Source: Pseudogemmobacter lacusdianii
GTDB lineage: Bacteria > Pseudomonadota > Alphaproteobacteria > Rhodobacterales > Rhodobacteraceae
Length of the DNA: 64,000 nt
Assembly: GCF_030848395.1 (NCBI RefSeq)
Contig: NZ_JAVDBT010000006.1
Location: 1-64,000, forward strand
Direction: 5' to 3'
Shown here: one piece after another, positions 42,945-64,000 of the stretch
Layout of the letters: each line of letters starts with the position of its first letter
How positions within the stretch are numbered: position 1 is the first letter of the stretch
Notes under the pieces: generated by a model
What the model saw: only the letters and a program-made list of their open reading frames with translations
Told to the model about the DNA's origin: nothing
Databases searched by the model: none
Translations under genes and position numbers: made by a program

Positions 42945-42999
42945 GGGTCTGTTTCACATATGGCTTAGGTATGGCCGACGTATGGTTTGCGTCTGGCAC
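42945..42999. repeat. Five 11-bp direct repeats, copy B (core ACGTATGG)
   Basis: Units start at 42945, 42956, 42967, 42978 and 42989. The middle three read ACATATGG, AGGTATGG and ACGTATGG, each followed by three variable bases; the outer units (GGGTCTGT, GCGTCTGG) are degenerate in the same way as in copy A (5747-5801), where unit 1 is ACGTCTGC. It occupies the centre of the divergent region between sppA (start 42889) and the LysR gene (start 43057). Confidence 0.72.
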
Positions 43000-43056
43000 C
43001 CCGTCAGCCCCTACGGCCCCTTGCTCCCCCTGCCCGCTCAGGGCAGTTTGGGCCCT

Positions 43057-43947: not shown

Positions 43948-43953
43948 ACAGGG

Positions 43954-44007
43954 TTGATAGCCAACGCCTATCGTTTAACGGCATATTGGAATTGAATTGG
44001 CTATCAA
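43954..44007. promoter_or_regulatory. LysR-type operator upstream of fdsG
   Basis: A perfect 11-bp inverted repeat: TTGATAGCCAA (43954-43964) and TTGGCTATCAA (43997-44007). Within the left part, ATAG (43957-43960)-N7-CTAT (43968-43971) forms the T-N11-A motif typical of LysR recognition sites, and a third CTAT lies at 44001-44004, as expected for an activation half-site near the promoter. It is 42-95 bases before the fdsG start. Confidence 0.6.
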
Positions 44008-44048
44008 AGGCGCGCATGCTTCGCACCAGCTAGCTGAAGGCCGCCCGC

Positions 44049-44510
44049 ATGCTCGATTCCATCGACCTAGAGACCCGTATTCGTGAGATCCTTGACGCCC
44101 ATCGCGGGCAAGAAGGCTCACTCCTGCCCATTTTGCATGATGTCCAAGAGGCTTACGGCTATGTGCCGGAAGCGGCCTTGCCGATCATCGCTGCCGATTT
44201 GCAGATCACCAAGGCCGAAGCGCATGGTGTGATGACCTTCTACCACGATTTCCGTGAGAAGCCGGCGGGCCGTAAGGTCTTGAAATTGTGCCGTGCTGAA
44301 TCCTGCAAATCGATGGGCGCCGATGCTTTGGCGGCCGAGGTTCAGGCCAAGCTGGGTCTGGATTGGCATGAGACCTCTGCCGATGGCGCGGTCACTTTGG
44401 AGCCGATTTTCTGCCTTGGCCTTTGCGCCTGCGGTCCTGCGGCCATGGTCGATGGCAAGCTGGTCGGTCGGGCGACGGCTGAAGCTCTGGTTGCGAAGGT
44501 GAAGGCATGA
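44049..44510 (+). CDS. fdsG: NAD-dependent formate dehydrogenase gamma subunit
   Basis: 153 residues, homologous to NuoE of complex I. The [2Fe-2S] cluster ligands are CRAESC (about 84-89) and CLGLC (about 125-129, CLGLCACGPAAM). It relays electrons within the soluble, cytoplasmic FdsABG complex that oxidises formate to CO2 with NAD+. GAAGG stands about 9 bases before the ATG. Overlaps fdsB by 4 bases. Confidence 0.94.
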   Translation: MLDSIDLETRIREILDAHRGQEGSLLPILHDVQEAYGYVPEAALPIIAADLQITKAEAHGVMTFYHDFREKPAGRKVLKLCRAESCKSMGADALAAEVQAKLGLDWHETSADGAVTLEPIFCLGLCACGPAAMVDGKLVGRATAEALVAKVKA

Positions 44511-46012: not shown

Positions 46013-46143
46013 TCTTGTCGCTGCATTTGAGCAAGACCGCGACTATGCGTGAGGCCCTGCGGGGCCTGCGCTTGACTGATGAAGCCAAGGGGCAAGCCGT
46101 GCTTGCCCACCAGCCCGCCGCGCAGAAAGGTGCCCAGAGATGA
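46009..46143 (+). CDS. Possible 44-residue protein between fdsB and fdsA
   Basis: The frame MILSLHLSKTATMREALR...HQPAAQKGAQR starts at an ATG overlapping the fdsB stop (ATGA) and ends with a TGA overlapping the fdsA start (ATGA). AAGGAGG lies 7 bases before its start, stronger than the site before fdsA. The predicted peptide is basic, partly helical and has no membrane segment or motif known to me. Two exact four-base overlaps and the strong binding site argue that ribosomes translate it, either for the peptide itself or to deliver ribosomes to fdsA. It could still be a chance frame in a spacer. Confidence 0.5.
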   Translation: MILSLHLSKTATMREALRGLRLTDEAKGQAVLAHQPAAQKGAQR

Positions 46144-49031: not shown

Positions 49032-49034
49032 GCG

Positions 49035-49850
49035 ATGATCGGCGCACGGCCCATTCCTCGGCTGGCATTCGGCCCTGCCCCCTTGGCGGGTGAGCGCATG
49101 CTGTCTGAAGAGCGGGCCGTGGCCTTGTCTTTCAACGGCTCAACCCAAGCGGTGATGATGGCGACGCCGGCGGATCTGGTTGATTTCGCTTATGGTTTCG
49201 CTTTGACCGAAGGCATTGCGGTGCCGACTGAGGTTGAGTCGGTTGAGGTGGTCGAGACCGAGGGCGGCATTGATGTGCAATGCTGGCTGGTGCCAGAGGC
49301 CGAGGCGCGCTTGGCCGCGCGGCGGCGGACGATGGCGGGGCCGGTGGGTTGCGGGCTTTGCGGCATTGATTCCATTGCCGAAGCGGTGCGCGAACCTGAG
49401 CCGGTGCCGCATGGCGGTTTGCGGATGACGCCAAGCCAAGTGATGGCCGCGATTGCCGCTTTGCCGCAGTTTCAGCCTTTGCATGATGTCACCCGTTCGG
49501 CCCATTGCGCGGGCTTTTGGACCGGCGGCGCTTTGGCGGTGACGCGTGAGGACGTGGGCCGCCACAACGCCTTGGACAAGCTGGCTGGTTGGGCTTTGCG
49601 TTCCGGCGCGGATTGCGCCCAAGGCGCGGTGGTGCTGACCTCGCGCGTCTCGATCGACCTTGTGCAAAAGGTCGCAGCTTTGCGCTGCGGCATCGTGATT
49701 GCCGTCTCGGCCCCCACGGCGGATGCTGTGGCTTTGGCCGAGCGCGCCGGCATCACCCTGATCGCTTTGGCCCGCCCCGATAGGTTCGAGGCCTTTACCC
49801 ATACCGATAGAATTGTGACGGAGCCCGCCCATGTCGGCCACCCCCGCTGA
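49035..49850 (+). CDS. fdsC: Formate dehydrogenase sulfurtransferase FdhD/FdsC
   Basis: 271 residues of the FdhD family, with the sulfur-carrying motif CGLCG (VGCGLCGIDS, about residue 103-107) and TREDVGRHNALDKLAGWAL. It transfers sulfur from a cysteine desulfurase to the bis-molybdopterin cofactor and inserts it into FdsA. Begins 3 bases after fdsA; a second in-frame ATG 21 codons later is possible. Overlaps fdsD by 20 bases. Confidence 0.92.
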   Translation: MIGARPIPRLAFGPAPLAGERMLSEERAVALSFNGSTQAVMMATPADLVDFAYGFALTEGIAVPTEVESVEVVETEGGIDVQCWLVPEAEARLAARRRTMAGPVGCGLCGIDSIAEAVREPEPVPHGGLRMTPSQVMAAIAALPQFQPLHDVTRSAHCAGFWTGGALAVTREDVGRHNALDKLAGWALRSGADCAQGAVVLTSRVSIDLVQKVAALRCGIVIAVSAPTADAVALAERAGITLIALARPDRFEAFTHTDRIVTEPAHVGHPR

Positions 49851-50061: not shown

Positions 50062-50700
50062 TCAAAGCGCAGCGGCGGTCAGGATGTGACCGCTTGCGAG
50101 GCCCCAGCGGCCCTTGATCGCATCGCCTTTCCGAAAGGGGGCGATGTTTTCGTTGAAGCTTGCCGTGAAGGCCTCGCCCGTCACGGTGATCTTTAGGCTC
50201 TCGAAACCGAAAAGCTGGCCGGAATGGCTGTATTGCGCTTTGTAGGCCGCCTCTTTGGCGCAGAAGATCAGCTTGGCAGCAAGGCCCGGATCGGGTTGGT
50301 CATAGGCCCAAAGCTGCTCACTTTCACTAAGGATCGAAGGCCAGAGGTCGCGCTCTAAACCTTCGGCTTCCTCCAGATCCAAGCCGATCCCCGCCCCATG
50401 CCGCACCGCAGCAAGACAAGCGCTGCGGCTGTGGGTGATCGTGCCGGAGATCCCCAAAGGCCAAAGCGGCGAGCGGTCTGCATGGGCCGGAATGGCGCGG
50501 CCCGGCAGGCCCAAATGCTGCAAAGCTTGCCGCGCAGCATGGCGCCCGGCGGAAAACTCGGCGCGCCTTGCTGGCGTTGCTTGCGGCAATGTCTCGCCCG
50601 GCAAGAGCGGGTAATGCTGGCGCGGATCGGCGCAGGCCAGCGCCACACCACCCAGCAAAAGCCTTTGCGCGAGGGATAGAAGCTCAGCGTTTTCAGACAT
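50062..50700 (-). CDS. 4'-phosphopantetheinyl transferase (EntD/Sfp type)
   Basis: 212 residues. Magnesium and CoA motifs are seen: GIGLDLEEAEG (about 104-114) and FCAKEAAYKAQY (about 149-160), preceded by the EntD-like SGTITHSRSACLAAV. It converts apo-carrier domains of the adjacent NRPS and PKS to the holo form. Its start overlaps the NRPS stop by 8 bases, so it is the last gene of the biosynthetic operon. The length is near the usual 210-230. Confidence 0.9.
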   Translation of the reverse strand: MSENAELLSLAQRLLLGGVALACADPRQHYPLLPGETLPQATPARRAEFSAGRHAARQALQHLGLPGRAIPAHADRSPLWPLGISGTITHSRSACLAAVRHGAGIGLDLEEAEGLERDLWPSILSESEQLWAYDQPDPGLAAKLIFCAKEAAYKAQYSHSGQLFGFESLKITVTGEAFTASFNENIAPFRKGDAIKGRWGLASGHILTAAAL

Positions 50701-53700
50701 CTACACCACGCCGCGCCAAGCGCATCGCGCGGCGCCGCTCCATCGCATCGGCCAAGGTTTCGCCCTGCGGCTGGGGTGGGGTTGCTGCAAAGACTTGCGG
50801 CTGCACAGTCGTAATTGGTGCGGCTTTCGGTCCTTCGATATGCGCCGCCAGCTGTTCGAGCACCGGGAAGCGGAAGATGTCGGTGATCGAAACCTTCGCC
50901 CCTGCAAGGCTTTCACGGATTTCACGATGCGCCTGCACGGCCAAAAGCGAATGGCCGCCAAGGGCAAAGAAATTATCTTTGGCCCCGACCTTCGCCACCC
51001 CCAAAACCCGCGCCCAGATCGCGGCCAAATCCTCGGCCACCGAGGATTTCGGCGCCTCAAAGCCTTGCGCCGCCGGGGCCCGGGCGGCATGCGGCGCGGG
51101 CAAGGCTTTGCGGTCCACCTTGCGGTTCGGCGTCAGCGGCATCGCGGCAAGGGTGACGAAATGCTGCGGAATCATATGCTCAGGCAGCGCGGATTTCAGC
51201 GCTTGGCGTAGTGCAGGATCTGCCGCATGACCGGTCAGATAGGCCACCAAGCGCAGATCACCCGGCGTGTCTTCCCTAGCGATAACAATGGCTTGGGTCA
51301 CACCCGGCTGCTGTTCCAGCACGGCCTCGATCTCACCCAACTCGATCCGATAGCCGCGCAGCTTGACCTGATGATCGGCGCGGCCAAGGAAATCAAGCTT
51401 GCCATCCGCCCGCCGCCGCACGAGATCACCCGTGCCGTAAATCCGGCCCTCGGCGAAGGGATTGGGGCGGTAACGGTCGGCGGTCAGCTCCGGCCGCTGC
51501 CAATAGCCGCGCGTCACGCCCTCACCGCCAATCCAAAGCTCTCCCTCGGCGCCCGAAGGCACCGGCGCGCCCTGCGGGTCGAGCACATAGAGCTGCTGAT
51601 TGGCGAGAGGGAGGCCGATATTGGTCACCGGCTCGGTCTCGGTCACCTCTTCGACCGAGGACCAAATCGTGGTTTCAGTGGGCCCATACATGTTGAAAAG
51701 CTTTTTCACACCTGCCCGGCGCAGGTCTTCCACCAGCCCACCCGAAAGCGCCTCACCGCCCACCAACATGGCCTGAAGATTGGACAAAGCGCTGCGGCTG
51801 TCGGCATTCATCGCCAGCATCCGCGCCATGGAAGGCGTGCATTGCAGATGGCTGACGGAGTGGCGCGTGATCTGCGCGGCGATCGAGAAATCGTCGGCGG
51901 CGAGCCCACCCTGATTGGCGCGGCGCACCACCTCGGCCAAGGCGGGCAGGCTTTGCATCACCGCTTCGGGCGCGATGCCGAAATCGATCAGGCAGGCGAC
52001 TTCAGCCACACCAATGCGCTTCAGCTCTTCCACCCGCGCCAGCGCCTCTTCGACCGTGCCGAAGAGGCCCGAATCGTCGAAATAGCGCTGGAAGGCGAAG
52101 TCGAGAATCGCCGCATTCTCTTCATCCGAGAGCGCCGCAAGGTCGATATCCATCGGATTTGATGCATTTTGCGGCTTTTTGAACGCCGGGAAGGCCCAAG
52201 CGTATTGCTTGACCAAAGCGGCGGCGCTGGCGAGATAGGCTTTCATCGGCGCTTCCGCCAATTGCCGCACCGCAGCGCGGCTTTCACCAATGCAGCTGTG
52301 CAGCATCAAAGTGACCTTGTGGCGCGCCGGATCATGCCCGGCGGCGCGCAAAGCCTCATGGTAAAGCGTGACCTTTTGTCCAACCTCTTCAACGCTTTGA
52401 CCCAAAAGATGCGTCAGCACATTGGCGCCCAAAGCGCCCGCTTCCTTCCAAGTCTCGGGGTTGCCAGCGGTGGTGACCCAAATATCCAACTCGGCGGAAA
52501 CCGGGCGCGGCTGGGTCTTTACGGTGAAAAGGCTGCCATCGGCTTTGGGGAAATCCACCCCCTCCCCGCGCCAGAGACGCCGGACCTGATCGGCGGCGGC
52601 ATACATCGCGGATTTGTTCTGCGGCGGGGCATTTTCGGGCCGCAACACAAAGTCATCGGGGTGCCAGCCCGAGGCGATGGCGATGCCGGACCGGCCATTC
52701 GTTAAGTTATCAATGACCGCCCATTCCTCGGCAATCCGCGCCGGATGGTGCAGCGGCACGACGCAAGATCCGGCCCGAATGGCAAGGTTTTTGGTCACTG
52801 CCGCCACCGCAGCCCCGGTCACGGAAGGGTTGGGATAGGGGCCACCAAAGGCGTGGAAATGCCGCTCGGGCGTCCAAAGCGCGGTGAAGCCATTGCGGTC
52901 GGCGAACTTGGCGCCTTCGAGCAAAAGCTCATATTTCTTGGGGCCTTGGCCATCGTCATTGCCCCAGTAATAGAGGGAGAACTCCATGCCTTGGGCGGAG
53001 GTGATCGGGCCAGAGGAGACTAGGCTTCGGGTCTCATCCGAGGCGATGACGACCTTGAACCCCCGCGCAAGAGTCCAGAACAACTCAAGCACCGAGATGT
53101 CGAAGGAGAGCGAGGTGACGGCGAGCCAAGTGCCGGGTTCCGTGCCGACGCGATCGTCGATTCCGGTGAAGAAATTAACCACGTTGCGGTGTTCGATCTG
53201 CACGCCTTTGGGCCGCCCGGTCGAACCGCTGGTGTAGATCATATAGGCGAGGTCTTGCGGCTGCACCGTGGTTTGCGGGTTGGTCTCGGGCAGCGCGGAG
53301 AGGTCATCATCCAGCGCCAAAAGCTGGACATTGCGGGGCAGTTGTGGGGCGAGGTCGCTTTGGGTGACAATCACCGGGCAGGCGGAATCCTCGGCAAAAA
53401 GCGCAATGCGATCAGAGGGATAGGCGGGATCCATCGGGACATAGGCGCCGCCTGCCTTCAGGATCGCCAAGGCGCCTGCCACCAGATCAAAGCCGCGCCG
53501 GGCGCAAAGGCCGACCAAAGTGCCGGGCGTCACGCCCATCGCGACCAGCCGATGCGCGGCGCGGTTGGCACGGGCGTTGAGCGCGGCATAGCTGAGGCTT
53601 TGGTCCTCAAACACCAGCGCCGGGGCGTCGGGGGTGCGGGCGACCTGCGCCTCAAAGGCTGTGTGCAGCATCAGGCTGCGGTCATGGTCGCGCGGGGTTG

Positions 53701-55204
53701 GGTTCCAGCGGGTCACGGCCTCGTTCAGCTCGGCCTCGGTCAGGGGCGAGAGGGTTGAGAGCTGGGTTTCAGGCGTGGCGGCGGCGATCTGGCTGGCGAT
53801 GTGGTCGAGGCGGGCGGCAAGAGCGCGGGCCTCGGCCTCAGGCAGGCGGGTCGCGTCGAAATGCAGCTTGCCGGGGGCAAGGGTCAGCGCGGTTCCGGGG
53901 ATAAAGCCTTGATCGGAAAGGCCGATTGGCGGGGTTTGCAGTCCCTGCAGGGCGGGGTCGCGGGTGAGGAGGTCCAAGGCCCAGCCTCGAGGTTTCGTCG
54001 CAAGGGCGGCGGTGAGCGTTGCAAGCGCGGGGCCGATCGCCTCGGCCCGCAAGGTCAGCGGCGTCCAATCCGCAAGATAGCCCGGCAGCGGCTGTGCGGC
54101 GCGGGCGATGTCTCCAGAGACCTGCCGCGAGACCCGCAGCATCGCCAAGGCGAGATGCGGCAGAGCGCCCGTGAGCGGCAGGCTTTGCCAATCGGCGGGC
54201 TGCGTCGGGCTGGTCGCCGCGAACGGCAGCGGGTCAAGCGTGGCAAGGGCGTGGCGCTGCGCGCCGTCTTGCGGGGCTTGGGCGCGGTGGGCGGCGGTGA
54301 GGGCGGCCCGCGTTTCGGCATCCAAAGCTGAAAGTTGGCGGGTGGTGACAGTAGTGGGGCAGATCGCGCCGCCAAGGCTTTGGCAGCTGAGGCCGCTCAG
54401 CCGCACCGCACCGCTGCCGCAGGCCACCTCAAGGCCTTCCGCACTGGCGGAAAGCACGGCCCCCGGCGCGCCCTGCCCCAGTGCCTCGGTGGCGCTGCCA
54501 ACGTTCAGGACACGGGTGCCGGTGTCGATCTTTGCCGTGGTCAAAGGGTTCCAATAGCGGCCGTGATCCAGCGCGCGCACCAGCCGGACGACCGAGGCTG
54601 AACTTTGGGTAAAGTCAATCTGGCCAAAGGCTTCTGGGCGGTCGGCCCTGCGGTGCAACTGGCGCAGGCCGGGGGATTGTGCGCGTGGCGTCAGCCCGTT
54701 TTCCAGCTGTGTGAGCACCGCCGGAAAGCTCTCCAACCCCGCCTCGAAGCAGCGGGTGTTGAGGGTCAGCGCCGTCTCGCCCTCGGCGATGGCGAAGCGG
54801 CGCTCCTCAAGAATGCGGCCCTGATCGACGCCGTCTTCGATCAGATGCCAGGTGATGCCATGCTCCGCCTCAGCCGCCAGAAGCGCCCAGACCGGGGCGT
54901 TAAGGCCAGCGTGGCGCGGCAGCGGGCCGTCGTGGAAATTGACCGCGCCTTTGCTCGCGCGGGCCAAAACCGCAGGCGGCAGAACGGTGAGATTGGCGAT
55001 TGAGAGCAGCCAATCGGCCTGCGGCAGGCGGCTGGCGAGATCGGGGCCGGGGGCCTCAACCGCCACGCCCTGCGCCGCAGCCCAAGCGCGGATATCGGGG
55101 GCATCGCTGACGACAGCCGCGATGCGGTGGCCGCGCGCCAAAAGCTGCGCGCCGCATGCGCGGGTCAGGGTTTCATTGCCGATCAGCAGGGCCGAAAAGC
55201 TCAT
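50693..55204 (-). CDS. Nonribosomal peptide synthetase: formyltransferase - degenerate C - A with inserted luciferase-like monooxygenase - PCP
   Basis: 1503 residues from ATG 55202-55204. Residues 1-280 are a methionyl-tRNA-formyltransferase-like domain with catalytic Asn89, His91 (NFHDGPLP) and Asp127 (VDQGRIL). Residues about 330-500 resemble only the C-terminal part of a condensation domain; no HHxxxDG. The adenylation domain has A3 YTSGSTGRPKG (657-667) and A4 FDISVLELF (701-709), is interrupted by an FMN-dependent luciferase-like monooxygenase (about 738-1100), and resumes to A5 NMYGPTETTI (1171-1180), A7, A8 and A10. Pocket residues read by hand, D-I-L-S-L-G-M-I-W-K, are close to the glycine code. 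A PCP (Ser1419 in LGGHS) and a 45-residue tail end the protein; there is no thioesterase. Best read as a loading module for the PKS. Related MupA/Atu3671-type insertions are known. Confidence 0.9.
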   Translation of the reverse strand: MSFSALLIGNETLTRACGAQLLARGHRIAAVVSDAPDIRAWAAAQGVAVEAPGPDLASRLPQADWLLSIANLTVLPPAVLARASKGAVNFHDGPLPRHAGLNAPVWALLAAEAEHGITWHLIEDGVDQGRILEERRFAIAEGETALTLNTRCFEAGLESFPAVLTQLENGLTPRAQSPGLRQLHRRADRPEAFGQIDFTQSSASVVRLVRALDHGRYWNPLTTAKIDTGTRVLNVGSATEALGQGAPGAVLSASAEGLEVACGSGAVRLSGLSCQSLGGAICPTTVTTRQLSALDAETRAALTAAHRAQAPQDGAQRHALATLDPLPFAATSPTQPADWQSLPLTGALPHLALAMLRVSRQVSGDIARAAQPLPGYLADWTPLTLRAEAIGPALATLTAALATKPRGWALDLLTRDPALQGLQTPPIGLSDQGFIPGTALTLAPGKLHFDATRLPEAEARALAARLDHIASQIAAATPETQLSTLSPLTEAELNEAVTRWNPTPRDHDRSLMLHTAFEAQVARTPDAPALVFEDQSLSYAALNARANRAAHRLVAMGVTPGTLVGLCARRGFDLVAGALAILKAGGAYVPMDPAYPSDRIALFAEDSACPVIVTQSDLAPQLPRNVQLLALDDDLSALPETNPQTTVQPQDLAYMIYTSGSTGRPKGVQIEHRNVVNFFTGIDDRVGTEPGTWLAVTSLSFDISVLELFWTLARGFKVVIASDETRSLVSSGPITSAQGMEFSLYYWGNDDGQGPKKYELLLEGAKFADRNGFTALWTPERHFHAFGGPYPNPSVTGAAVAAVTKNLAIRAGSCVVPLHHPARIAEEWAVIDNLTNGRSGIAIASGWHPDDFVLRPENAPPQNKSAMYAAADQVRRLWRGEGVDFPKADGSLFTVKTQPRPVSAELDIWVTTAGNPETWKEAGALGANVLTHLLGQSVEEVGQKVTLYHEALRAAGHDPARHKVTLMLHSCIGESRAAVRQLAEAPMKAYLASAAALVKQYAWAFPAFKKPQNASNPMDIDLAALSDEENAAILDFAFQRYFDDSGLFGTVEEALARVEELKRIGVAEVACLIDFGIAPEAVMQSLPALAEVVRRANQGGLAADDFSIAAQITRHSVSHLQCTPSMARMLAMNADSRSALSNLQAMLVGGEALSGGLVEDLRRAGVKKLFNMYGPTETTIWSSVEEVTETEPVTNIGLPLANQQLYVLDPQGAPVPSGAEGELWIGGEGVTRGYWQRPELTADRYRPNPFAEGRIYGTGDLVRRRADGKLDFLGRADHQVKLRGYRIELGEIEAVLEQQPGVTQAIVIAREDTPGDLRLVAYLTGHAADPALRQALKSALPEHMIPQHFVTLAAMPLTPNRKVDRKALPAPHAARAPAAQGFEAPKSSVAEDLAAIWARVLGVAKVGAKDNFFALGGHSLLAVQAHREIRESLAGAKVSITDIFRFPVLEQLAAHIEGPKAAPITTVQPQVFAATPPQPQGETLADAMERRRAMRLARRGVDV

Positions 55205-55205
55205 C

Positions 55206-56204
55206 TCAATGGTCCTTACCCATAGCTTTCGCGCTGCCACTCCGCCCCACATTCCGGCGCAGATGCCGCAGATGATGCGCTGTAAGGTCTCGCAAATAGC
55301 GCGGCGGATCGCCCCTGTCCTTGGCTTGGATCAAAAGCCGCAGCCGCCACAAAGCGCCGCCCGCAAGCGTTGCAAGGCTAGCCCCCGCCGCATAGGCGCG
55401 CCCGTGGTTCTTGGTGAAATAATGCAGTCGCGAGTCGAGCCAAAAGCGCGGAATGCGCGGCCAGCTTTTCATCCCCGTCGAGACCGAACCGATGTGCATC
55501 ACCCGACTTTCCACAACGTAATCTGTGGGATAGCCAGCCAAGGCCGCACGGCGGCAAAGGTCGGTTTCCTCGAAATAGAGAAAGAAGCGCTCGTCAAAAA
55601 GGCCGATCTGATCCAGCACGGATTGGCGCATCATCAGGCTGGCCCCGGCAAGCCAATCGACACGGGTCGTCTCGGTTGGGATCGGGCGTGCCACGATATG
55701 GCGGGCCAGCAGCTTTGAGACCGGGCCGAAGCGAATTTGGCCTTCGAACTCGGAGAGGATCGAGGGGAAGCGGAAGGCAGTGCGATGCGGATCGCCCTCC
55801 GGCCCGTGGATATAACTCCCGGCAAAACCCGTGGCGGGGTGGGTTTGCAGATGGGTCAGCAGCGCGCGGATCGCATCCGGCGCGGGGAAGGCGTCGGAGT
55901 TCAAAAGGTAGACATAGTCGGGCCTGCTGCCATCGGGCATCCCGGCGCGGATGCCGTGATTGTTGCCCGCCCCAAAGCCGCCGTTGCGGCCCGATTGCAG
56001 CACCCGCACCGCCTGCGGCCCCTTGTCCCAACCGCGCGCCACAACCTCGGCGCTGAGCCGCTCGAACGAGCCATCGCCGCTGTCATTATCAACGATGGTG
56101 AGCGCGCCTTCCACGCCTTGCAGGGCGGTCAGCGCCGCCTCGGCCGCGCGCAGGGTCATCTCGGCGGTGCGCCAATTGAGGATGATCGTCAGAAGGCCCG
56201 CCAT
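55206..56204 (-). CDS. Family 2 glycosyltransferase inside the PKS-NRPS operon
   Basis: 332 residues of the GT-A fold: LTIILNWRTAEMTLRA at the N terminus, IVDNDSGDGS, NGGFGAGNNHGIRAG, the metal-site equivalent LLNSDAFP (about 99-106), GASLMMRQSVLDQIGLFDERFFLYFEETDLCRRA as acceptor/catalytic region. The branch resembles rhamnosyltransferases. A C-terminal basic helical stretch may associate with the membrane. Directly abuts the PKS (0 bases) and lies 1 base before the NRPS, so it is translated with them and probably glycosylates their product, or links the product to a surface glycan. Confidence 0.87.
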   Translation of the reverse strand: MAGLLTIILNWRTAEMTLRAAEAALTALQGVEGALTIVDNDSGDGSFERLSAEVVARGWDKGPQAVRVLQSGRNGGFGAGNNHGIRAGMPDGSRPDYVYLLNSDAFPAPDAIRALLTHLQTHPATGFAGSYIHGPEGDPHRTAFRFPSILSEFEGQIRFGPVSKLLARHIVARPIPTETTRVDWLAGASLMMRQSVLDQIGLFDERFFLYFEETDLCRRAALAGYPTDYVVESRVMHIGSVSTGMKSWPRIPRFWLDSRLHYFTKNHGRAYAAGASLATLAGGALWRLRLLIQAKDRGDPPRYLRDLTAHHLRHLRRNVGRSGSAKAMGKDH

Positions 56205-59200
56205 CTATTCCGCCGCCTGCGCCATGGGGGCCGGGGTCTCGGCCCGCTCGATCACGCCGCGCATCTTGGTGGCAAGGACGCGGACATTGGGTTCCAGCAC
56301 CATGGAATCGTGATCTCCGGGCACTTCAAAGACCTGCAAAGCGGGGGCAAAGCGGGTGAGGTCATTGTCTTCAAAGACATATTCCTTGGCCGAAGAGACC
56401 CATGCCCCGCCCGAGACCTTCCAACGCAGGTCCAGCGGCGGGCGGAAGAGCACGGTGGCGCCTTGGCGCAGGCGCAGATCATAGCGCGGCAAGGCACGGC
56501 GGAAGGCGGCCTCAATCGCGGCATCGTGGAAGGCAACCTCGGCTTGCGCCTGCGGGGCTTCAGCCTGTTGACGCTTCCATGCGGCGCGGGCACGGGCCCA
56601 TTCCAGCAGATACCCCGGCCCCTTGGCGCGCAGCTCTGCCAGTTTAATCAAGGCCTTATCCTTGCGGCTGAGACTGGGCCGCAGCGGCAAAGGCGTGTCG
56701 AGCAAGATGACCAAAGGCACCTCTTCGCCTGCGGCTTCCAACTGCCGCGCGATCTCCCATGCGATCAGCCCGCCCCCCGAGAAGCCACCCAAGAGATAGG
56801 GGCCTTGCGGCTGCACCTGCCGCATCTCGGCGATATAATCGCGGGCGGCGGCGGTGAAATCGTCATGCGGGGTGTCGTCGCCCAAAAGCCCGCGCGCTTG
56901 CAGCCCGTAGAAGGGCCGATCGCCGCCCAAAAGCTGGGCGAGATGGCGCAGGTTCAGCACATTGCCGAACATGCCCGCGACCAAGAAGAAGGGCGCTTTC
57001 GCCCCGCCCTCGCCCCGGTGCATCGGCACCAGATGGGTGAAGCGGCGCGCCGGGGTCGTGGGACGCTCGGCCTCATCCTCGGGCGTGCCGATCTGATCGG
57101 CGATCAGCTTGGCACAGGCGGCAATGGTCGGCGCCTCGAACAGGATCGAGATCGGGAATTCGACGCGGAAGGCCTTTTTCACCATCGAGAAAAGGCGCAC
57201 CGCGATCAGCGAATGACCGCCAAGGTCGAAGAAACTGTCCTCAACCCCGACGCGGGAAACGCCGAGGAGCTCTTGCCAGAAGCCAACCAACCGGCGCTCA
57301 ATCTCAGTCTTCGGCTCGACATAGGCGCTGTCGAGATCGGGGCGCTCGAAGCTTTGGCTTTCCGCGCGCGGGGCTTCCGCCCCAGCGGTTTGGCGCACCA
57401 AAGCGGGCAGGTCGAGCGAAGAGAGGATGACTTGCGGGTTGCTGAGGCCAAGCGCGCGGGCAAAGGCGCGGGCGCCCTCATCAGGCCGGATGCCTTGGCT
57501 GAAACTGTGCATCAGCCGCTCTTCCGCTGGGGAAAGCGGGCGGGCGGTCTCATCAAATTCCAAAGCGCGGGCGTCCGGCGCGGGGAAGGAAAGCGCACCC
57601 TCCAAGCGGCGGATGGTGAAGCCTTTGATCTCAACGCAGACCTCGCCCTCTGGCGTGGCAAGGGTGATGTCAAAGCTGGCGGTGGGGCGATCCGCGCTAT
57701 TGGCGGCGGCATTGCGGATATGGCTGAGGATGCGCGCGGGCAAGGCGCGATAGGCGCGCAGGCTGGTGTAAGAGACCGGCACCCAAAGCGCATCGGGGCG
57801 GTAGCCTTGGATCAGATCCATCGCCCAGCCGGTGGCCAGATCCATCAGCGCGGGATGCAGAAGCCAGCCATTTTCAGGCTCTAAATCAAAGGATTCGGGC
57901 AAGGAGAGCTCTGCCAGCCCTTCCCCTTGGCCTGTCGTGCGACTGGTCAAAACCCGCCAGCGCGGGCCGAAGCTAAGATGCGCTTCCTGCGGGCTTTGCA
58001 GCCCCTCGCCCCGCTCGGGCGCGGGCAGACGCGCCGCAATTGCGCTGGGATCGATGCTTGGCGCAGCCGCGCTTAGCGGCAAAAGCCGGGCCGAGGCATG
58101 CTGCATCCAGCCCCGCCGACCTTGCAGCTCTTGCGCGGAATGCAGGTCGAAACCATAGCCCTCATCGCTGCGCGTCAGGCGGGCGCGGATCTCGCGGGCC
58201 TCGCCCTCGGGGATGTTGAGCGCGCGGAAGAAGGTCAGATCGCGCAGCTCAAAACCGCCCGCCTCGCCTTGGGCGCGCCAAGCCTCGGCGGCGAGTTCCA
58301 GATAGCCGGTGCCGGGGATCAAAGCGGTGCCGTCCTTGGTGCGGTGGCCGTCCAGCACCCAGCGGTCAAAGCCGATCTTGGCGGCGAAGATGCGGTTGCC
58401 AGCGGCGTCAAAGCCCGCCTCATCCAGCATCTGCGCCTTGATCGGCAGGCGCGGGGCCAAGGGGCGACCGACGCGATCGGCAAGGCTTTCTGCCGCCATG
58501 CCAACCCCGGTCCAAATCCCCCAATTCAGCGCCAAGACCTTGGTTTTGCAGCCCTTCCGGCTTTTGGCATAGGCATTGAGATATTCATTCGCCGCCACAT
58601 AATCGATCTGACCAGCGGGGCCGGTGACGGTGGAAGTCGAGGCAAAAAGGATCAGATGGGCCAGCGTTCCATCCGGGAACAGCCGCTCAAGCACTTGAGT
58701 GCCGTGGAGCTTTGGCGCAAAGACCTCTTCCACCTCGGCCGGGGTTTTCGCCAGCAACGGCCCGTCATCGACCACGCCCGCGGCATGGATCACCATATGC
58801 ACCGGGCCAAACCGCGCCTCGCCAGCGTCGCGGGCGGCCTGCATCTCGACAAGGTTCGCCACATCGGCCTGCGCGATATGAAGCGTGCCACCAAGCGCTT
58901 CCAGCCGTTGCAAAGCAAGGATGCGGCGGGCGGTGGGATCATCGGGGCCGAGGTTGGCCAGCAGACGCGGCCAGTCTGCGCGGTCGGGCATCGCACGGCG
59001 GGCGATCAGGGTGATTTTGACGCCGTGGCGGCGGATCAGATCCTCGGCCAAAGTCAGGCCAATGCCGCCAAAGCCGCCGGTGATCAGCACATGCGCGCCT
59101 TGCGGCAGATCGGTTTCCGCCTTTGGCAAGGGCGCGGGCCGCAGGGTCAGCCCGTAGCGCCGCTCGCCGCGCAATGCGGCGAAGGTCGGCGTCGAGATCA

Positions 59201-62200
59201 GCTCTTCAAGGATGCGCTCGACAAGGGGCGCTTGGTCCTTCGGCAAGGGGCCAAGGTCAAGACTGCCGGTCACCAGCCCCGGCACCTCGCGCGGGATCAC
59301 CCGCAGCGGGCCAAGCACCATGGCCTTTTCAGGATAGGGCAGCGCCTCGGCCTTCACCTGAGCCGCCCCGGTGGTGAGGGTGGTCAGATGGATCGGGCCA
59401 GAAAGCCCTTCATCAGCAATGGCTTGGGCCAAGAACATCAGGCTGTAAAAGCCCTGCTCAATGTTGCGATGCAGAAAGCTTGAACCGGGGCGGAAGCTTT
59501 CCCGCGAAGTCACCAGCCAGAAATGCGCAATCCGTTGCGGCGTCAGATCACGGGCGACAAGATCGCGGATCAGAAGGTCATAGCCCTCCCGGCCCCGTTC
59601 GGGCGAAAGGATGTAATCGCTGCCCTTGCGGGCGAAAGTGTCGCCAGCATGGACAAGGGTGACTTTATGCCCAGCCTGCCGCAGCCGCGCGGCGCTGGCG
59701 GCGGCAAGGCCGGTCTCATCGGCAAAGAAGAGCCAGTTTTGAGGCGCTAGTTCGGGCAAATCTTCCAGCTCGGCGCTGGTGGTCTCGGGCTTCCAATGCG
59801 GCCGCCAACCCCATTGGCCAAGATCCTCGATCCGCTCGGGCAGAGGGTCTTCCTGCGGGGCCGAGGCCACACTCGGCTCAATGAAATAGGGTTTCTTTTG
59901 AAAGGCATATGTCGGCAAAGGCACCCGCAGGCGACGTTTGCCGCCCCAGATCGGCGCCCAGTCCACCTTGACGCCGCAAGCCCAAAGCCGCGCGATCGTG
60001 GCGATGTGCCACGCATCATCGGCCATCTTCTGCTCGGGGTGCCGCAGCGCCGCGATCACTTGCCCCGCCGCAAGACCATTCGCCTGCGCCAGCGACGACA
60101 GCGCCCGGCCCGGGCCCATCTCCATAAAGACCCGGCCGGGTTGGGAAAGGCTCTCCATGCAGGCGCGGAAATTCACCGTATTGCGCAGGTGCTGCACCCA
60201 ATAATCGGGGCTGGTCGCCTCCGCCGCCGTGAGCGGCTGGCCGGTGCGGTTGGAGACAATCGGCAGCTGCGGTGCGTGCAGGGGGATCGCCCGCAGATAG
60301 GCGCCGAAGCGTTCCAAAATCGGCTCTAACATGCGGCTATGGGCGGCAATGTCGATCGCGATGCGCTGCGTCTCAACCCCTTCGGCGCTGAGCTGCGCGG
60401 CCAAGGCCTGCAAGGCAGCATCGGGGCCAGAGACCACGCATAGCCCCGGCGCATTGACCGAAGCCATGTCGAGATCCGGGTTTTCGGCCATCCGCTCTCG
60501 CAGCACGCTTTCCTCCAGCGGGACCGAGAGCATGCCGCCCGGCGCTATGCTGTCGAAAAGCTGACCGCGCAGAAGCACAAGGCCGATGCAGTCTTCAAAG
60601 TTCATCACCCCCGCCAAGGCGGCGGCGGTGTTCTCGCCCATCGAATGGCCGACCAAAGCGCCGGGCGTCACGCCCCAGCTTTCGTAAAGCTTGGCCAGCG
60701 CAAATTCTGTGATCATGATCAGCGGCAGCTGAACGGAGGGGCGTTTCAGCGCCGCATCCGCCGCAGCCTCGGCCCCCGGCTCAGGCAGCCAAAGCGCGCG
60801 GATGTCATAGTCAAGCTGCGGCTCTAGCACCGCCAAACCCCGGTCCATCCAATCGGCAAAGACCGGCTCGGTCTCGTAAAGGTCGCGCGCCATGCCAGCA
60901 TATTGCGCGCCGCCGCCGGGGAACATGAAGATGACCTCGGGCGCGGTGCCGAGATGGTCATGGTTAAAGACCCGGCGCGGATCGGCCCCTTCCAGAAGGC
61001 TTGCGGCCTGCCTATGGCTCTCGGCCACGATCACCCGGCGCTTCTCGAAAGCGCGGCGCCCCTCTTTCAAGGTCCAAGCCACATCGGCCAAGCTTTGGTC
61101 CGGATGGCTGCGCAGATGCGCCGCAAGCCGGGCGGCTTGGGCATCAAGCGCCGCTTTGGAGCGGGCCGAGATCACCAAGGGCTGGAACGGCCAATCGCTG
61201 TCCTCGGACGCCGCCCGCAAAGGTGCCTCTTGCAGCACCGCATGGGCATTGGTGCCGCCCACGCCAAGGCTGTTCACCCCGGCGCGGCGCAAGGGCGCAT
61301 GCCATTCCGTCAGGCGATCATTGACCCGGAAAGGACTGGTCTCGAAATCAATCGAAGGGTTCGGCGCTTCATAGCCCAAAGAGGCCGGGATCTGCCGATG
61401 ATGCAGCGAGAGCGCCACTTTGATCAGGCTCGCCACCCCGGCGGCGGTGTCGAGATGCCCGATATTGGTCTTGACCGAACCAATGCGGCAGGTGCCGACA
61501 GTCTCGGCGCTTTCGGCAAAGGCTTGGGTCAGCGCGGCGACCTCAATCGGGTCGCCCAGATAGGTGCCGGTGCCGTGGCATTCGACATAGCTCACCGTAT
61601 CCGCGCTTACCCCGGCGATCATCTGCGCCTCGGCGATGCAAGCCGCCTGACCATCGACCGAAGGTGCGAGATACCCCGCCTTCGCCGCGCCATCATTGTT
61701 GATCGCCGAGCCCTTGAGGATCGCCCAGATATGGTCGCCGTCCCGCACAGCATCCTTGGCGCGGCGCAAGACCACACAGCCCGCGCCGGAGCCGAAAACC
61801 GTGCCTTGGGCGCGGTGGTCGAAGGCGTGGCAATGACCATCGGGCGACAGGATCTCGCCCTCTTGATGCAGATAGCCGCGCGCATGGGGCAGTTCGATCG
61901 TCACGCCCCCGGCCAAAGCCATATCGCATTCGCCCGAGAGCAAAGCCTGCGCCGCGTAATGCACCGCCACAAGCGAGGTCGAACAGGCGGTCTGCACATT
62001 CACACTCGGCCCCTTAAGGTCAAGGATATGGCTGACGCGGGTCGAGAGGAAATCCTTGTCATTGCCGGTATGGCGCAGAAGGAACATGCCGGTCTGATCG
62101 ACCAGATCGCGGTTTGAACAGAGGTTGAAGTAGAAATACGACCCCATGCCGCAACCGGCATAGACGCCAATCGCGCCCTTAAACGCCTCGGGCGGGTGGC

Positions 62201-62540
62201 CCGCGTTCTCCAATGCCTCCCAAGCCACCTCGAGGAAATGCCGGTGCTGGGGATCAAGGATCGCGGCCTCTTTTGGCGAAAAGCCAAAGAACTCGGCATC
62301 GAACTCTTTGAACCCCTCAAGCACCGCCGCCGAGGGGACGTAATTCGCCCGCCGCATCCGGGCCGGAGTTTCCCCCGCCGCCAAAAGCTCGGCCTCGCTC
62401 AGCACCCGGATCGATTCAACGCCCCCAGCAAGGTTCTGCCAATAGGCCGCGATATCCGGCGCCCCCGGCAGATGCGCCGCCATGCCGACAATCGCAATGT
62501 CGGTCTCACTCAGGCCGGAAACATCGGTCGTCGGGGTCAT
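56205..62540 (-). CDS. Type I polyketide synthase, KS-AT-KR-DH-ACP-TE
   Basis: 2111 residues from ATG 62538-62540. KS about 12-440 with Cys186, His322, His362; AT about 535-860 with Ser633 (GHSMGE) and IAAHS near 731; KR with its structural half about 905-1145 and the NADPH motif TGGFGGIGL (1154), Tyr1314 and Asn1318; DH about 1385-1650 with His1399 (LDGHR) and Asp1567 (HPALMDLATG); ACP Ser1777 (LGGHS); TE Ser1921 (GFSGGG), Asp1948, His2077. KR before DH is unusual. No ER or methyltransferase, so one round should give an alpha,beta-unsaturated thioester released by the TE. It probably extends the aminoacyl unit loaded on the NRPS. First gene of the four-gene operon. Confidence 0.92.
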   Translation of the reverse strand: MTPTTDVSGLSETDIAIVGMAAHLPGAPDIAAYWQNLAGGVESIRVLSEAELLAAGETPARMRRANYVPSAAVLEGFKEFDAEFFGFSPKEAAILDPQHRHFLEVAWEALENAGHPPEAFKGAIGVYAGCGMGSYFYFNLCSNRDLVDQTGMFLLRHTGNDKDFLSTRVSHILDLKGPSVNVQTACSTSLVAVHYAAQALLSGECDMALAGGVTIELPHARGYLHQEGEILSPDGHCHAFDHRAQGTVFGSGAGCVVLRRAKDAVRDGDHIWAILKGSAINNDGAAKAGYLAPSVDGQAACIAEAQMIAGVSADTVSYVECHGTGTYLGDPIEVAALTQAFAESAETVGTCRIGSVKTNIGHLDTAAGVASLIKVALSLHHRQIPASLGYEAPNPSIDFETSPFRVNDRLTEWHAPLRRAGVNSLGVGGTNAHAVLQEAPLRAASEDSDWPFQPLVISARSKAALDAQAARLAAHLRSHPDQSLADVAWTLKEGRRAFEKRRVIVAESHRQAASLLEGADPRRVFNHDHLGTAPEVIFMFPGGGAQYAGMARDLYETEPVFADWMDRGLAVLEPQLDYDIRALWLPEPGAEAAADAALKRPSVQLPLIMITEFALAKLYESWGVTPGALVGHSMGENTAAALAGVMNFEDCIGLVLLRGQLFDSIAPGGMLSVPLEESVLRERMAENPDLDMASVNAPGLCVVSGPDAALQALAAQLSAEGVETQRIAIDIAAHSRMLEPILERFGAYLRAIPLHAPQLPIVSNRTGQPLTAAEATSPDYWVQHLRNTVNFRACMESLSQPGRVFMEMGPGRALSSLAQANGLAAGQVIAALRHPEQKMADDAWHIATIARLWACGVKVDWAPIWGGKRRLRVPLPTYAFQKKPYFIEPSVASAPQEDPLPERIEDLGQWGWRPHWKPETTSAELEDLPELAPQNWLFFADETGLAAASAARLRQAGHKVTLVHAGDTFARKGSDYILSPERGREGYDLLIRDLVARDLTPQRIAHFWLVTSRESFRPGSSFLHRNIEQGFYSLMFLAQAIADEGLSGPIHLTTLTTGAAQVKAEALPYPEKAMVLGPLRVIPREVPGLVTGSLDLGPLPKDQAPLVERILEELISTPTFAALRGERRYGLTLRPAPLPKAETDLPQGAHVLITGGFGGIGLTLAEDLIRRHGVKITLIARRAMPDRADWPRLLANLGPDDPTARRILALQRLEALGGTLHIAQADVANLVEMQAARDAGEARFGPVHMVIHAAGVVDDGPLLAKTPAEVEEVFAPKLHGTQVLERLFPDGTLAHLILFASTSTVTGPAGQIDYVAANEYLNAYAKSRKGCKTKVLALNWGIWTGVGMAAESLADRVGRPLAPRLPIKAQMLDEAGFDAAGNRIFAAKIGFDRWVLDGHRTKDGTALIPGTGYLELAAEAWRAQGEAGGFELRDLTFFRALNIPEGEAREIRARLTRSDEGYGFDLHSAQELQGRRGWMQHASARLLPLSAAAPSIDPSAIAARLPAPERGEGLQSPQEAHLSFGPRWRVLTSRTTGQGEGLAELSLPESFDLEPENGWLLHPALMDLATGWAMDLIQGYRPDALWVPVSYTSLRAYRALPARILSHIRNAAANSADRPTASFDITLATPEGEVCVEIKGFTIRRLEGALSFPAPDARALEFDETARPLSPAEERLMHSFSQGIRPDEGARAFARALGLSNPQVILSSLDLPALVRQTAGAEAPRAESQSFERPDLDSAYVEPKTEIERRLVGFWQELLGVSRVGVEDSFFDLGGHSLIAVRLFSMVKKAFRVEFPISILFEAPTIAACAKLIADQIGTPEDEAERPTTPARRFTHLVPMHRGEGGAKAPFFLVAGMFGNVLNLRHLAQLLGGDRPFYGLQARGLLGDDTPHDDFTAAARDYIAEMRQVQPQGPYLLGGFSGGGLIAWEIARQLEAAGEEVPLVILLDTPLPLRPSLSRKDKALIKLAELRAKGPGYLLEWARARAAWKRQQAEAPQAQAEVAFHDAAIEAAFRRALPRYDLRLRQGATVLFRPPLDLRWKVSGGAWVSSAKEYVFEDNDLTRFAPALQVFEVPGDHDSMVLEPNVRVLATKMRGVIERAETPAPMAQAAE

Positions 62541-62754
62541 CCAAAACGTCCTTGCGGTCTGCCTCAGCGGCGCGAATCTCAAAGGCACGGCCGCGCCTTA
62601 GTTCAAAGAGCCAAGAGGCCGGGGCAAATTAACTTATTTTAACTCAATGCGATACCCAAAGCCCCCCGCCTAGGTGATCTTGCCTAAAGCGAAGACAATG
62701 CCGCTTTGGCACCGCAAGATGCAGGGGGATGCCTGTGCAGAATGGGCAATAGAG
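62541..62754 (-). promoter_or_regulatory. Upstream region of the PKS operon with a CtrA-like site
   Basis: 214 bases, the only gap of note in the biosynthetic block. At 62629-62643 TTAA-N6-TTAAC resembles the CtrA box (TTAA-N7-TTAAC) with one base less spacing, in an otherwise GC-rich setting. A start point for the PKS operon should be here; no strong -35/-10 pair was identified. Confidence 0.35.
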
Positions 62755-63720
62755 CTACCAAAACCCCGCGCCGCCGCCGCGCATCATGCGGATTTGCGCC
62801 TTTATGTAGACAATCAAATCAAAGCCAAAGCCGATGACCGCGATGGGAAGTCGCTTCAAAGACGCCCGCGCAAGCCGCTTGACCAAGAAATGCAGCGGCA
62901 CATAGCCTTGCGGAAAGCGCGGCAGGCGCGCGGCCAAAACCCTGCCAAGCGCCTGAGGGTCACTGGCCAAAAGCCGCGCCTCGGCCCTTGGCTTTGACGC
63001 CTCGGTCAGATGGGCAAACAGCGCCGCATTGACCGCCGAGCCGATCACGATCCGCTCTTGATGGCGGATCAAAGCGCCAAGGCTGCGCTCTGAGGCATAG
63101 ATGTGACGCACGCCTTCGGCGCCGTCGATCCGGAAGACATCCTCGGGCGCGGTCAAGTTATCCGTCAGCACCATCGCGCGCAGATAGCCATCCTCGACCG
63201 GCAGGCCGATCGGCAGACGGAAGCGGCGGGCGCGGGCGGCTGGCATGGCGTAAAGCTGGCCACAAATCGCTGTGCGCCAATCATCAAGCCCGCCCGAGGC
63301 TTTCAACGCCAGCTTCTCGACCAAGGTCTTGGCCCCGCGCAAAGCGGTGTCTTTGACGGGCTGGCTGCTCAGCACCCAAAGCTCAGGCCGCGCGCAAAGG
63401 CCTTGGATCAAGCGTGCCAGAACATCGCGCTCCAGCATCTCAATGTCGGCATCGGCGAAGATCAAGATCTGTGCATCTCGCCGCGCAAGCCCGCGGGTAA
63501 AGCGGTTCCAAGTGCGGCTTTTGCCGCCCTCGGCCAGCTCGGCCACCTCGGCTCCGGCGGCGCGCGCCTGCGCGGCGGTGTCATCACGGCAACCATTGGC
63601 CAAGACCAAGATCCGCAGATCGACCCCATCGGGCAGCCTCTGCGCCTGCACAAAGCCCAGCATCTGAGCGATGCCCGCGGCCTCATTATGGGCAAAGATG
63701 CCAAGATCCACTTTGATCAT
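62755..63720 (-). CDS. Family 2 glycosyltransferase
   Basis: 321 residues from ATG 63718-63720 (MIKVDLGIFAHNEAAGIAQMLGFV). GT-A fold: nucleotide-binding VLANGCRDDTAAQARAAGAEV, metal-binding IFADADIEM (about residue 93), acceptor region LPVEDGYLRAMVL. A hydrophobic stretch near the C terminus (LPIAVIGFGFDLIVYI) suggests membrane association. Start overlaps the stop of the preceding membrane-protein gene (ATGA). It could belong to the natural-product pathway or to an exopolysaccharide locus that continues to the right. Confidence 0.83.
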   Translation of the reverse strand: MIKVDLGIFAHNEAAGIAQMLGFVQAQRLPDGVDLRILVLANGCRDDTAAQARAAGAEVAELAEGGKSRTWNRFTRGLARRDAQILIFADADIEMLERDVLARLIQGLCARPELWVLSSQPVKDTALRGAKTLVEKLALKASGGLDDWRTAICGQLYAMPAARARRFRLPIGLPVEDGYLRAMVLTDNLTAPEDVFRIDGAEGVRHIYASERSLGALIRHQERIVIGSAVNAALFAHLTEASKPRAEARLLASDPQALGRVLAARLPRFPQGYVPLHFLVKRLARASLKRLPIAVIGFGFDLIVYIKAQIRMMRGGGAGFW

Positions 63721-64000
63721 CGCAGCACCGCTTGCACCGGCACCAAGGGCGGCACGGCGGCTTTGCGCGCGGCCCGCATCTGCTCGGCCTGACCGAGAAG
63801 CGCGCCGGCCATCAGCCAAGTCAGCGGCACCATCGTGCCATTGGGCAACAAATCCAAAAGGTTGCAGGCGAAGATCAAAGCGAGGCCCGCCAGCTCAAGC
63901 GAAAAGCGCGCGCCGCGTGCCAAGGCCTCGCGGCCCAAAAGCGCCAAGGGCAGGCACAAAAGCCCAAAGGCACCGATATAGCCAATCCAGCCGAAACTGC
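63717..64000 (-). CDS. Membrane protein, O-antigen ligase-like, C-terminal part (runs off the right edge)
   Basis: About 94 residues are visible and the frame stays open to the window edge. Three hydrophobic segments (GYIGAFGLLCLPLALLG; FSLELAGLALIFACNLLDLLPNG; MVPLTWLMAGALLG) end in a short basic cytoplasmic tail. The NLLDLLPNG-x-PLTWLMAGALLG pattern resembles the last periplasmic loop and helix of O-antigen ligase/polymerase proteins; with so little sequence this is tentative. Coupled by a 4-base overlap to the glycosyltransferase that follows. Confidence 0.5.
   Translation of the reverse strand, partial: SFGWIGYIGAFGLLCLPLALLGREALARGARFSLELAGLALIFACNLLDLLPNGTMVPLTWLMAGALLGQAEQMRAARKAAVPPLVPVQAVLR

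Follow-up and report, generated by a model that had tools for sequence, protein, structure and literature searches.

A PKS-glycosyltransferase-NRPS-PPTase operon within an exopolysaccharide locus in Pseudogemmobacter lacusdianii: a proposed assembly line for an N-formylglycine-derived acyl group

The window analysed here is a stretch of 64,000 nucleotides from the alphaproteobacterium Pseudogemmobacter lacusdianii (Rhodobacteraceae; NCBI RefSeq assembly GCF_030848395.1, contig NZ_JAVDBT010000006.1, positions 1 to 64,000 of the forward strand). It carries four codirectional open reading frames (ORFs) on the minus strand, which encode a type I polyketide synthase (PKS), a family 2 glycosyltransferase (GT2), a non-ribosomal peptide synthetase (NRPS) and a phosphopantetheinyl transferase (PPTase), and which border an exopolysaccharide (EPS) locus (Table 1). 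The TAG stop codon of the PKS gene directly abuts the ATG of the glycosyltransferase (GT) gene, a single base separates the TGA of the GT gene from the ATG of the NRPS gene, and the ATG of the PPTase gene sits 8 bases within the 3' end of the NRPS gene. ORF coordinates and the reading of the DNA bear out the original prediction, made from the sequence alone, of a four-gene operon with these three junctions, and the domain content agrees with its picture of a minimal unit that has a starter and a single extension step, releases its product by a thioesterase and brings its own activator. The four genes are placed as predicted, but the unit may be longer, since on this strand the PKS gene is preceded by a second GT gene (GT2a) and a Wzy-like gene. 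Tight spacing is also found in an annotated relative, Ruegeria conchae, with 2-base gaps and a 4-base overlap, and in the window all four genes have their highest GC content at the third codon position. Promoter scans around the operon found none; terminator-like sites number two upstream (1.2 expected) and one downstream (0.2 expected).

Table 1. Features of the operon and of the adjoining EPS locus, in coordinates of the window
Feature	Position	Strand	Basis and remarks
Type I PKS gene	56205..62540	-	ORF reading; ATG at 62540, GTG start at 62588 also open
KS domain	61371..62504	-	PF00109 + PF02801; C202, H338, H378 invariant
AT domain	60111..60932	-	PF00698; GHSMGE; AAHS at specificity motif
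KR domain	58509..59093	-	PF08659; S1317, Y1330, N1334, D1275 invariant
DH domain	57597..58400	-	PF21089 + PF14765; H1415, D1583 invariant
ACP	57105..57293	-	PF00550; S1793 invariant
Type I thioesterase (TE)	56289..56987, C-terminal limit approximate	-	PF00975; S1937, D1964, H2093 invariant
GT2 family glycosyltransferase gene	55206..56204	-	PF13641/PF00535
NRPS gene	50693..55204	-	ATG at 55204; longest ORF from 55252
Formyltransferase (F) domain incl. C-terminal part	54329..55201	-	Pfam Formyl_trans_N/_C; AlphaFold2; alignment
Adenylation domain, N-terminal part up to a4	52985..53656	-	PF00501
Luciferase-like monooxygenase between a4 and a5	51929..52981	-	TIGR04020
Adenylation domain, C-terminal part, code DILQLGMIWK	51101..51901	-	alignment
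PCP	50837..51031	-	PF00550; S1435 invariant
Sfp/EntD-type PPTase gene	50062..50700	-	PF17837 + PF01648
GT2 glycosyltransferase (GT2a) of EPS locus	62755..63819	-	PF00535
Wzy/O-antigen-ligase-like membrane protein P0005, 3' end	63717..64000	-	whole gene C46:63717-65132

The domains of the NRPS suggest a loading module, in which a formyltransferase (F) domain is followed by a degenerate linker, a glycine-type adenylation (A) domain split by a monooxygenase, and a peptidyl carrier protein (PCP). Conservation was read from an alignment of 79 NRPS and 69 PKS rows, window included, from which rows outside length limits were left out. The F-domain residues N105, H107 and D143 are invariant in 79/79 rows, the PCP serine S1435 is equally constant, and Pfam finds both Formyl_trans_N and Formyl_trans_C in all 26 members compared. 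An AlphaFold2 model of residues 18-530 (mean pLDDT 91.3) contains a complete formyltransferase, which superposes on ArnA/Fmt with Z ~26 and an rmsd of 2.5-2.9 over 280-282 aligned residues. The Foldseek/VIA-align rows for this model span mainly the F domain (~residues 1-292 of the model), and no fold was assigned from the whole model to the stretch behind it, which was not folded by itself. A Condensation domain was likewise not detected, with no Pfam match and the HHxxxD motif in 0/79 NRPS middle regions, a region that was not folded or searched alone; the ~75 residues with which it closes are similar to the final part of a C domain (8hlk, E 7.6e-7). The A domain and monooxygenase were modelled with moderate confidence (mean pLDDT 79.6, pTM 0.62). 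With positions placed by GrsA numbering, the adenylation code of the window is DILQLGMIWK and that of the 79 rows as a whole DILQ[MLFY]GM[IV]WK, one row having one undetermined residue. The monooxygenase scores 471 bits against TIGR04020 (cut-off 244) and comprises the best conserved stretches of the NRPS, 166 of its 351 positions being kept in at least 98% of rows. One Paracoccus marcusii plasmid (L191:12954-17545) has a separate annotated gene for the formyltransferase, which overlaps the gene for the A-monooxygenase-PCP part; a second P. marcusii plasmid (L196) carries both parts as one gene, and a frameshift is possible in L191.

The PKS has the Pfam domain order ketosynthase (KS), acyltransferase (AT), ketoreductase (KR), dehydratase (DH), acyl carrier protein (ACP) and thioesterase (TE), with the KR placed before the DH, and all catalytic residues examined are invariant in the 69 aligned sequences. 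AAH of the AT specificity motif is constant in 69/69 rows and the following S in 68/69; AAHS is neither HAFH nor YASH, the usual motifs. The KR may be of B type, as suggested by D1275 of the LDD-type motif, and the H-to-G spacing of the DH is one residue above the usual motif. Elsewhere in the genome, ketosynthase matches lie in open frames of at most 503 amino acids. The GT of the operon weakly matches the rhamnosyltransferase model TIGR01556 (30.5 bits, cut-off 200.55). A PF01648 search yields two PPTase-superfamily matches in the genome, that of the operon and one in a 153-amino-acid open frame on contig C47; the latter appears to be AcpS-sized, and therefore the PPTase of the operon looks like the only Sfp-type enzyme of the genome. 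The original prediction had named the type of unit correctly, but had missed the KR and DH, the F domain, the glycine code and the monooxygenase within the A domain. Gene order in G681, an outgroup genome, supports a predicted polarity from the NRPS to the PKS: there (L184:6268-15504), a gene for F, A, luciferase-like monooxygenase and PCP precedes one for a protein with KS, AT, KR, DH, Condensation, AMP-binding, PP-binding (two stretches in all) and TE domains. As this PKS is fused to a C-A-T-TE part, the family would seem to make longer products too.

Homologs of the NRPS were found in 160 of the 390 Rhodobacterales species genomes sampled (about 40%), representing 65 of 139 genera, with one match each (E <= 1e-100). 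A phylum-wide sample gave a match in 16/398 genomes at E <= 1e-150; ten of these were already in the Rhodobacterales set, four further genomes from the same class gave matches of nearly full length, and two gave partial ones. A scan of genome contigs found 283 relatives, 80 of which were kept, mostly from Rhodobacteraceae, with Hydrogenophaga and a few metagenome-assembled genomes labelled otherwise; the Roseobacter group is represented by Roseovarius, Shimia and Salipiger among others. The 80 loci, some of them partial, contain the PKS in 77 cases, the GT in 78 and the PPTase in 71. Because the genes are found together elsewhere, the operon is more than a chance neighbourhood. The three loci without PKS are contigs of at most 8.7 kb; among the nine without PPTase, L049, L068, L078 and L088 end at or near a contig end, and the other five do not. 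In L011, the GT is located before the PKS. Where the PPTase gene would be expected on a plasmid of Ruegeria sp. SCSIO 43209 (L190:23673-24459), the annotation shows only a hypothetical gene of 78 codons and what remains of a transposase, and this copy may have lost the enzyme.

The operon of the window is apparently the orphan PKS/NRPS cluster of the roseobacters. Collins et al. 2015 describe a cluster of PKS, GT, NRPS and PPTase in 28 of 57 Roseobacter genomes, the product of which is uncharacterised (PMC4337385), and the same is stated in the paper on Leisingera JC1, where antiSMASH lists it as a natural-product cluster (PMC5014874). Collins et al. cite Martens 2006 for the cluster, the JC1 paper Martens 2007, and the spacing of Inhi_1972 (PKS) and Inhi_1974 (NRPS) fits it as well (PMC4062626). 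Shared features are the four genes together, the wide occurrence in the lineage and the product not identified; in the accessible text of PMC4337385 and PMC5014874, a polysaccharide locus, a formyltransferase and a glycine monooxygenase are not mentioned. The layout had thus already been described, and the reading as a new layout, with no characterised cluster recognised, was rejected; comparison across relatives does lead to a described cluster, but to one that has no known product (PMC4337385). The words "exopolysaccharide" and "polysaccharide" have 0 occurrences in PMC4337385, and the accessible parts of PMC4511512 and PMC7989816 hold nothing on the cluster. Judged by titles and abstract openings, no report tying the cluster to a polysaccharide locus was found among the papers listed. 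Within the reach of these literature searches, both the EPS membership and the starter logic of F domain, glycine and monooxygenase are regarded as new.

The EPS locus to which the operon belongs is of the Wzx/Wzy type; it begins at the edge of the window and runs from 62755 onward past 64000 (L089, contig C46:62501-82000). Upstream of the PKS follow, in this order, GT2, the Wzy-like gene, a WecG/TagA/CpsF transferase, GT2, an autokinase-like gene, Wzz and an initiating sugar transferase; further upstream lie RmlA/D/B, an unscanned ORF in the position expected for RmlC, a flippase (Wzx) and further GTs. The locus thus combines an initiating sugar transferase, several GTs, Wzz and the Wzy-like polymerase with the flippase, although the Wzy assignment is weak: the protein of the window has no Pfam or NCBIfam match, and a member of the same gene cluster in L012 matches PF04932 weakly and below its cut-off. 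Outer-membrane export (Poly_export) is encoded outside the locus, the two matches of the genome being on contigs C1 and C12. The original prediction had seen no exporter or regulator near the operon. The missing exporter was an effect of the window edge and that claim is rejected, as the flippase-bearing locus continues past the window; a LysR-type regulator gene lies ~6 kb downstream of the operon (42982-43947), beside formate dehydrogenase genes. Its further suggestion of a surface-linked product gains strength from the EPS locus. An exosortase-linked EPS was also considered for this genome and rejected, since PF09721 has no match; XrtA-type models give weak matches to Wzz and the kinase.

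Linkage to EPS genes extends across the Rhodobacterales. From the 65 positive genera, 40 genomes were chosen, one per genus, for assembly quality and not at random, and flanks of 20 kb upstream of the NRPS (40 genomes) and 14 kb downstream (20 genomes) were compared with 20 control regions of 20 kb situated ~80-120 kb away on the same contigs. Each place was assigned to its best-matching marker, and only non-GT markers (Wzy, Wzx, WecG, Wzz, autokinase and initiating transferase) were counted, because the GT2 markers also match the GT of the operon. At least one such marker was present upstream in 39 of the 40 genera and at least two kinds in 26; downstream, 12/20 had at least one. The control regions had at least one in 2/20 and at least two kinds in 0/20. 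There are two main recurring layouts: Wzx-PHPT-Wzz-kinase-GT2-WecG-Wzy-operon, often with just GT2-WecG-Wzy in view, and GT2-Wzx-operon-Wzz-kinase-GT2-GT1-WecG. Rml markers were found upstream in only 2/40 genera (G322, G018), whereas the locus of the window has the RmlA/B/D genes for dTDP-rhamnose. Marker-free clustering of the called neighbour genes gave the same EPS genes as the most frequent families, together with P0006 (L089:17546-19498), a neighbour conserved in 21/40 genera with a median length of 957 amino acids as called and without a Pfam, NCBIfam or PDB match. Parts of P0006 resemble a glycoside hydrolase by eye.

The Wzy-like protein is present in 159 of the 160 NRPS-positive Rhodobacterales genomes versus 40 of the 230 NRPS-negative ones (Fisher p ~2e-69, overstated since the genomes are related), and G310 has it although it is encoded ~370 kb from the NRPS. 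Within NRPS-holding genera, genomes without the NRPS are Wzy-negative in some cases (G353, G040, G022, G008, G011, G027 and G033 among the rows listed) and Wzy-positive in others (G102, G113, G287, G302, G090, G130, G176, G140 and G297, likewise among those listed); the genus is given for 20 of the 191 Wzy-negative genomes, so this comparison is partial.

Six relatives outside the Rhodobacterales were inspected (G641, G535, G417, G681, G704 and G669). G641 and G535, from other families of the class, hold a divergent PKS/NRPS pair with Wzx, WecG, PHPT and GT1, to which G641 adds Wzz and the PPTase; the GT of the operon was not matched in these two. On an Aminobacter plasmid, PKS, NRPS and PPTase are followed by a GT, an O-antigen ligase, an export protein and a flippase. 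A Shinella plasmid carries flippase, PKS, NRPS, PPTase, WecB/TagA/CpsF, glycosylphosphotransferase and export protein, and the same stretch encodes, ~12 kb away, a homologue (43%) of the operon GT. In both, a gene of the export family thus lies inside the locus. The 787-kb replicon NZ_CP081104.1 of R. conchae (L192) carries all four genes of the operon, intact, next to rfbABCD and a gene for a sugar transferase, and encodes the exosortase XrtD; therefore, the whole unit can be plasmid-borne. PKS, GT and NRPS also occur among polysaccharide genes on plasmids of another Ruegeria, of Parasedimentitalea and of two Paracoccus strains. In the Rhodobacterales and some Hyphomicrobiales, the company of EPS genes holds while gene order varies; it is not seen in the most distant relatives. 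In Hydrogenophaga flava, the polysaccharide locus around the four-gene operon contains a second assembly line (L040:16598-22609) of two AMP-binding stretches with a DIP2-like AMP domain, two PP-binding stretches, Condensation and TE, with an XrtA/PEP-CTERM-type ATPase upstream that scores below its cut-off.

On the other side of the operon, the window carries genes for formate dehydrogenase subunits, FdhD and the LysR regulator (42982-49850). FdhA and FdhD stand beside the operon in 14/80 loci, all from the closest relatives, and do not recur in the flanks of other genera, apart from one FdhA match. Formate metabolism next to a formyltransferase is suggestive, but may reflect shared descent.

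Taken together, these data favour the view, to which we assign a probability of about 0.55, that the operon is a dedicated assembly line for a short, once-extended acyl group derived from N-formylglycine and used in a Wzx/Wzy-type EPS pathway. The following route is proposed; its steps up to the hand-over from NRPS to PKS are deduced from sequence and precedent, and the extender unit, the product structure, the attachment to the polysaccharide and the acceptor of the GT are more conjectural. The PPTase would arm the carrier proteins, and the NRPS would load glycine onto its PCP, where the F domain would N-formylate it using formyl-tetrahydrofolate and the embedded flavin monooxygenase could hydroxylate the alpha carbon. 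The KS of the PKS would accept this starter, the AT would supply one extender unit, probably malonyl, and KR and DH would reduce and dehydrate the product. The TE would then release or transfer a C4-type acyl group, such as 4-formamido-but-2-enoyl or a related hydroxylated group, which might be placed on a sugar of an EPS repeat that the GT2 of the operon presumably helps to build. Somewhat short of an even chance is given to the broader idea of a widespread class of EPS with a hybrid peptide-polyketide acyl group on its repeat unit, in which the line decorates a polymer rather than making a free natural product.

Several observations weigh against this proposal. G334 lacks an EPS marker in its upstream 20 kb, the flank compared for it, and the association counts are not independent events because the genomes are related. 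In forty genomes the Wzy-like protein is present and the NRPS absent, which means that the NRPS is not everywhere a requirement for this polymer. Outside the order, nearby matches in G417 are limited to GT1- and RmlB-like genes, no clear EPS markers were found near G681 (40 kb), G704 (20 kb) and G669 (20 kb), and G704 and G669 are without the F triad. No named acyltransferase recurs, the unlabelled neighbour families, which were not annotated, reach at most 8/40 genera if the P0006 family is left aside, and an Acyl_transf_3-type family occurs in just 10/81 loci; the TE or an unlinked enzyme would therefore have to carry out the transfer. The fate of the starter after alpha-hydroxylation is the weakest chemical step. 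In myxothiazol and melithiazol biosynthesis, the a4-a5 monooxygenase of the glycine modules hydroxylates the alpha carbon, and the hydroxylated glycine breaks to an amide and a glyoxylyl part (PMC10204066). Such precedents point to cleavage, and a breakdown of this type, if it occurred here, would lose the nitrogen.

The monooxygenase might accordingly cleave glycine as in myxothiazol, leaving a glyoxylyl starter, or it might N-hydroxylate it, giving an N-formyl-N-hydroxy metal-binding group. Its position between a4 and a5 is that of the myxothiazol and melithiazol enzymes (PMC10204066), and the A domain shares the code DILQLGMIWK exactly with Gly-MOX domains described as cleaving the glycine backbone (PMC12283262). 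The nitrogen in these precedents, however, bears the upstream chain, whereas the sole N-acyl donor here is the F domain, the active site of which, invariant in all 79 rows, would make little sense if the nitrogen were discarded; N-hydroxylation by this monooxygenase family was not found in the accessible text of either paper. Chemistry of this kind is thus considered very unlikely.

Another explanation places the product outside the polymer: the operon may make a free secreted small molecule, such as a signal, an antimicrobial or a metal binder, and may lie among EPS genes for co-regulation or because the region is an exchange hotspot. In form it resembles a natural-product cluster, antiSMASH includes it among these (PMC5014874), the TE could simply hydrolyse the chain, some copies sit on plasmids that carry polysaccharide genes, and clear EPS neighbours are missing in some distant relatives (G681, G704 and G669). 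Nevertheless, we regard this as unlikely, since the EPS association is seen in 39/40 genera and, with differing gene arrangements, also in certain lineages of a second order, the Wzy-like protein co-occurs even when encoded far away, and the recurrent neighbours that can be named are Wzx, Wzy, Wzz, WecG, the kinase and GTs, the unnamed ones besides P0006 being confined to few genera. The product could also belong to the polymer in a different way, as a group that resembles a lipid carrier or sits at the chain end (primer, cap or anchor) instead of a decoration of the repeat, by analogy with the RkpA of rhizobial capsule loci. The PKS within a polysaccharide locus and a TE that ends the chain would suit this role, as would the second NRPS with a fatty-acyl-ligase-like part in the H. 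flava locus; one extension module and a glycine starter, however, predict a short polar group and not a lipid, which makes such a role quite unlikely.

Should the operon indeed serve an EPS pathway, assembly-line chemistry would be tied to polysaccharides on the surface of bacteria that are common in the sea and in fresh water. Its placement there points experimenters to the polymer rather than the culture extract, and to short acyl groups labelled from glycine and formate. EPS membership and starter logic together make a directly testable hypothesis of a long-standing orphan cluster.

Among known systems, the presence of a type I PKS within a locus for surface polysaccharide resembles that of RkpA, a fatty acid synthase/PKS-like enzyme of rhizobial capsular polysaccharide loci that presumably serves a lipid; RkpA is not known to have an NRPS partner. 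The starter module of the window has its closest parallels elsewhere. In phthoxazolin biosynthesis, PtxE with the order F-A(Gly)-PCP is proposed to make a formyl-glycyl starter, and the N-formylglycyl modules of oxazolomycin, phthoxazolin and conglobatin likewise feed a PKS (PMC5764310). As such loading modules require, the F domain of the window is N-terminal with an intact N/H/D site, and the A domain has a glycine-type code. Unlike the NRPS of the window, PtxE is described, in the accessible text, without an embedded monooxygenase, and the clusters of this group differ further by an oxazole-forming ATP-pyrophosphatase partner and longer polyketides (PMC5764310); an ATP-pyrophosphatase cyclase of the OzmP/CongE type was not found in the four operon proteins, to which the search was confined. 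The second parallel is to modules of the MtaG/MelG type, which share the luciferase-like monooxygenase at a4-a5 of a glycine domain and the same code; in a survey of specificity codes, all four glycine domains with MOX read DILQLGMIWK (PMC12283262). The myxothiazol and melithiazol modules, however, act on a chain that is handed over to them and release this chain as an amide, whereas the module of the window, without a recognised condensation domain, would start the chain.

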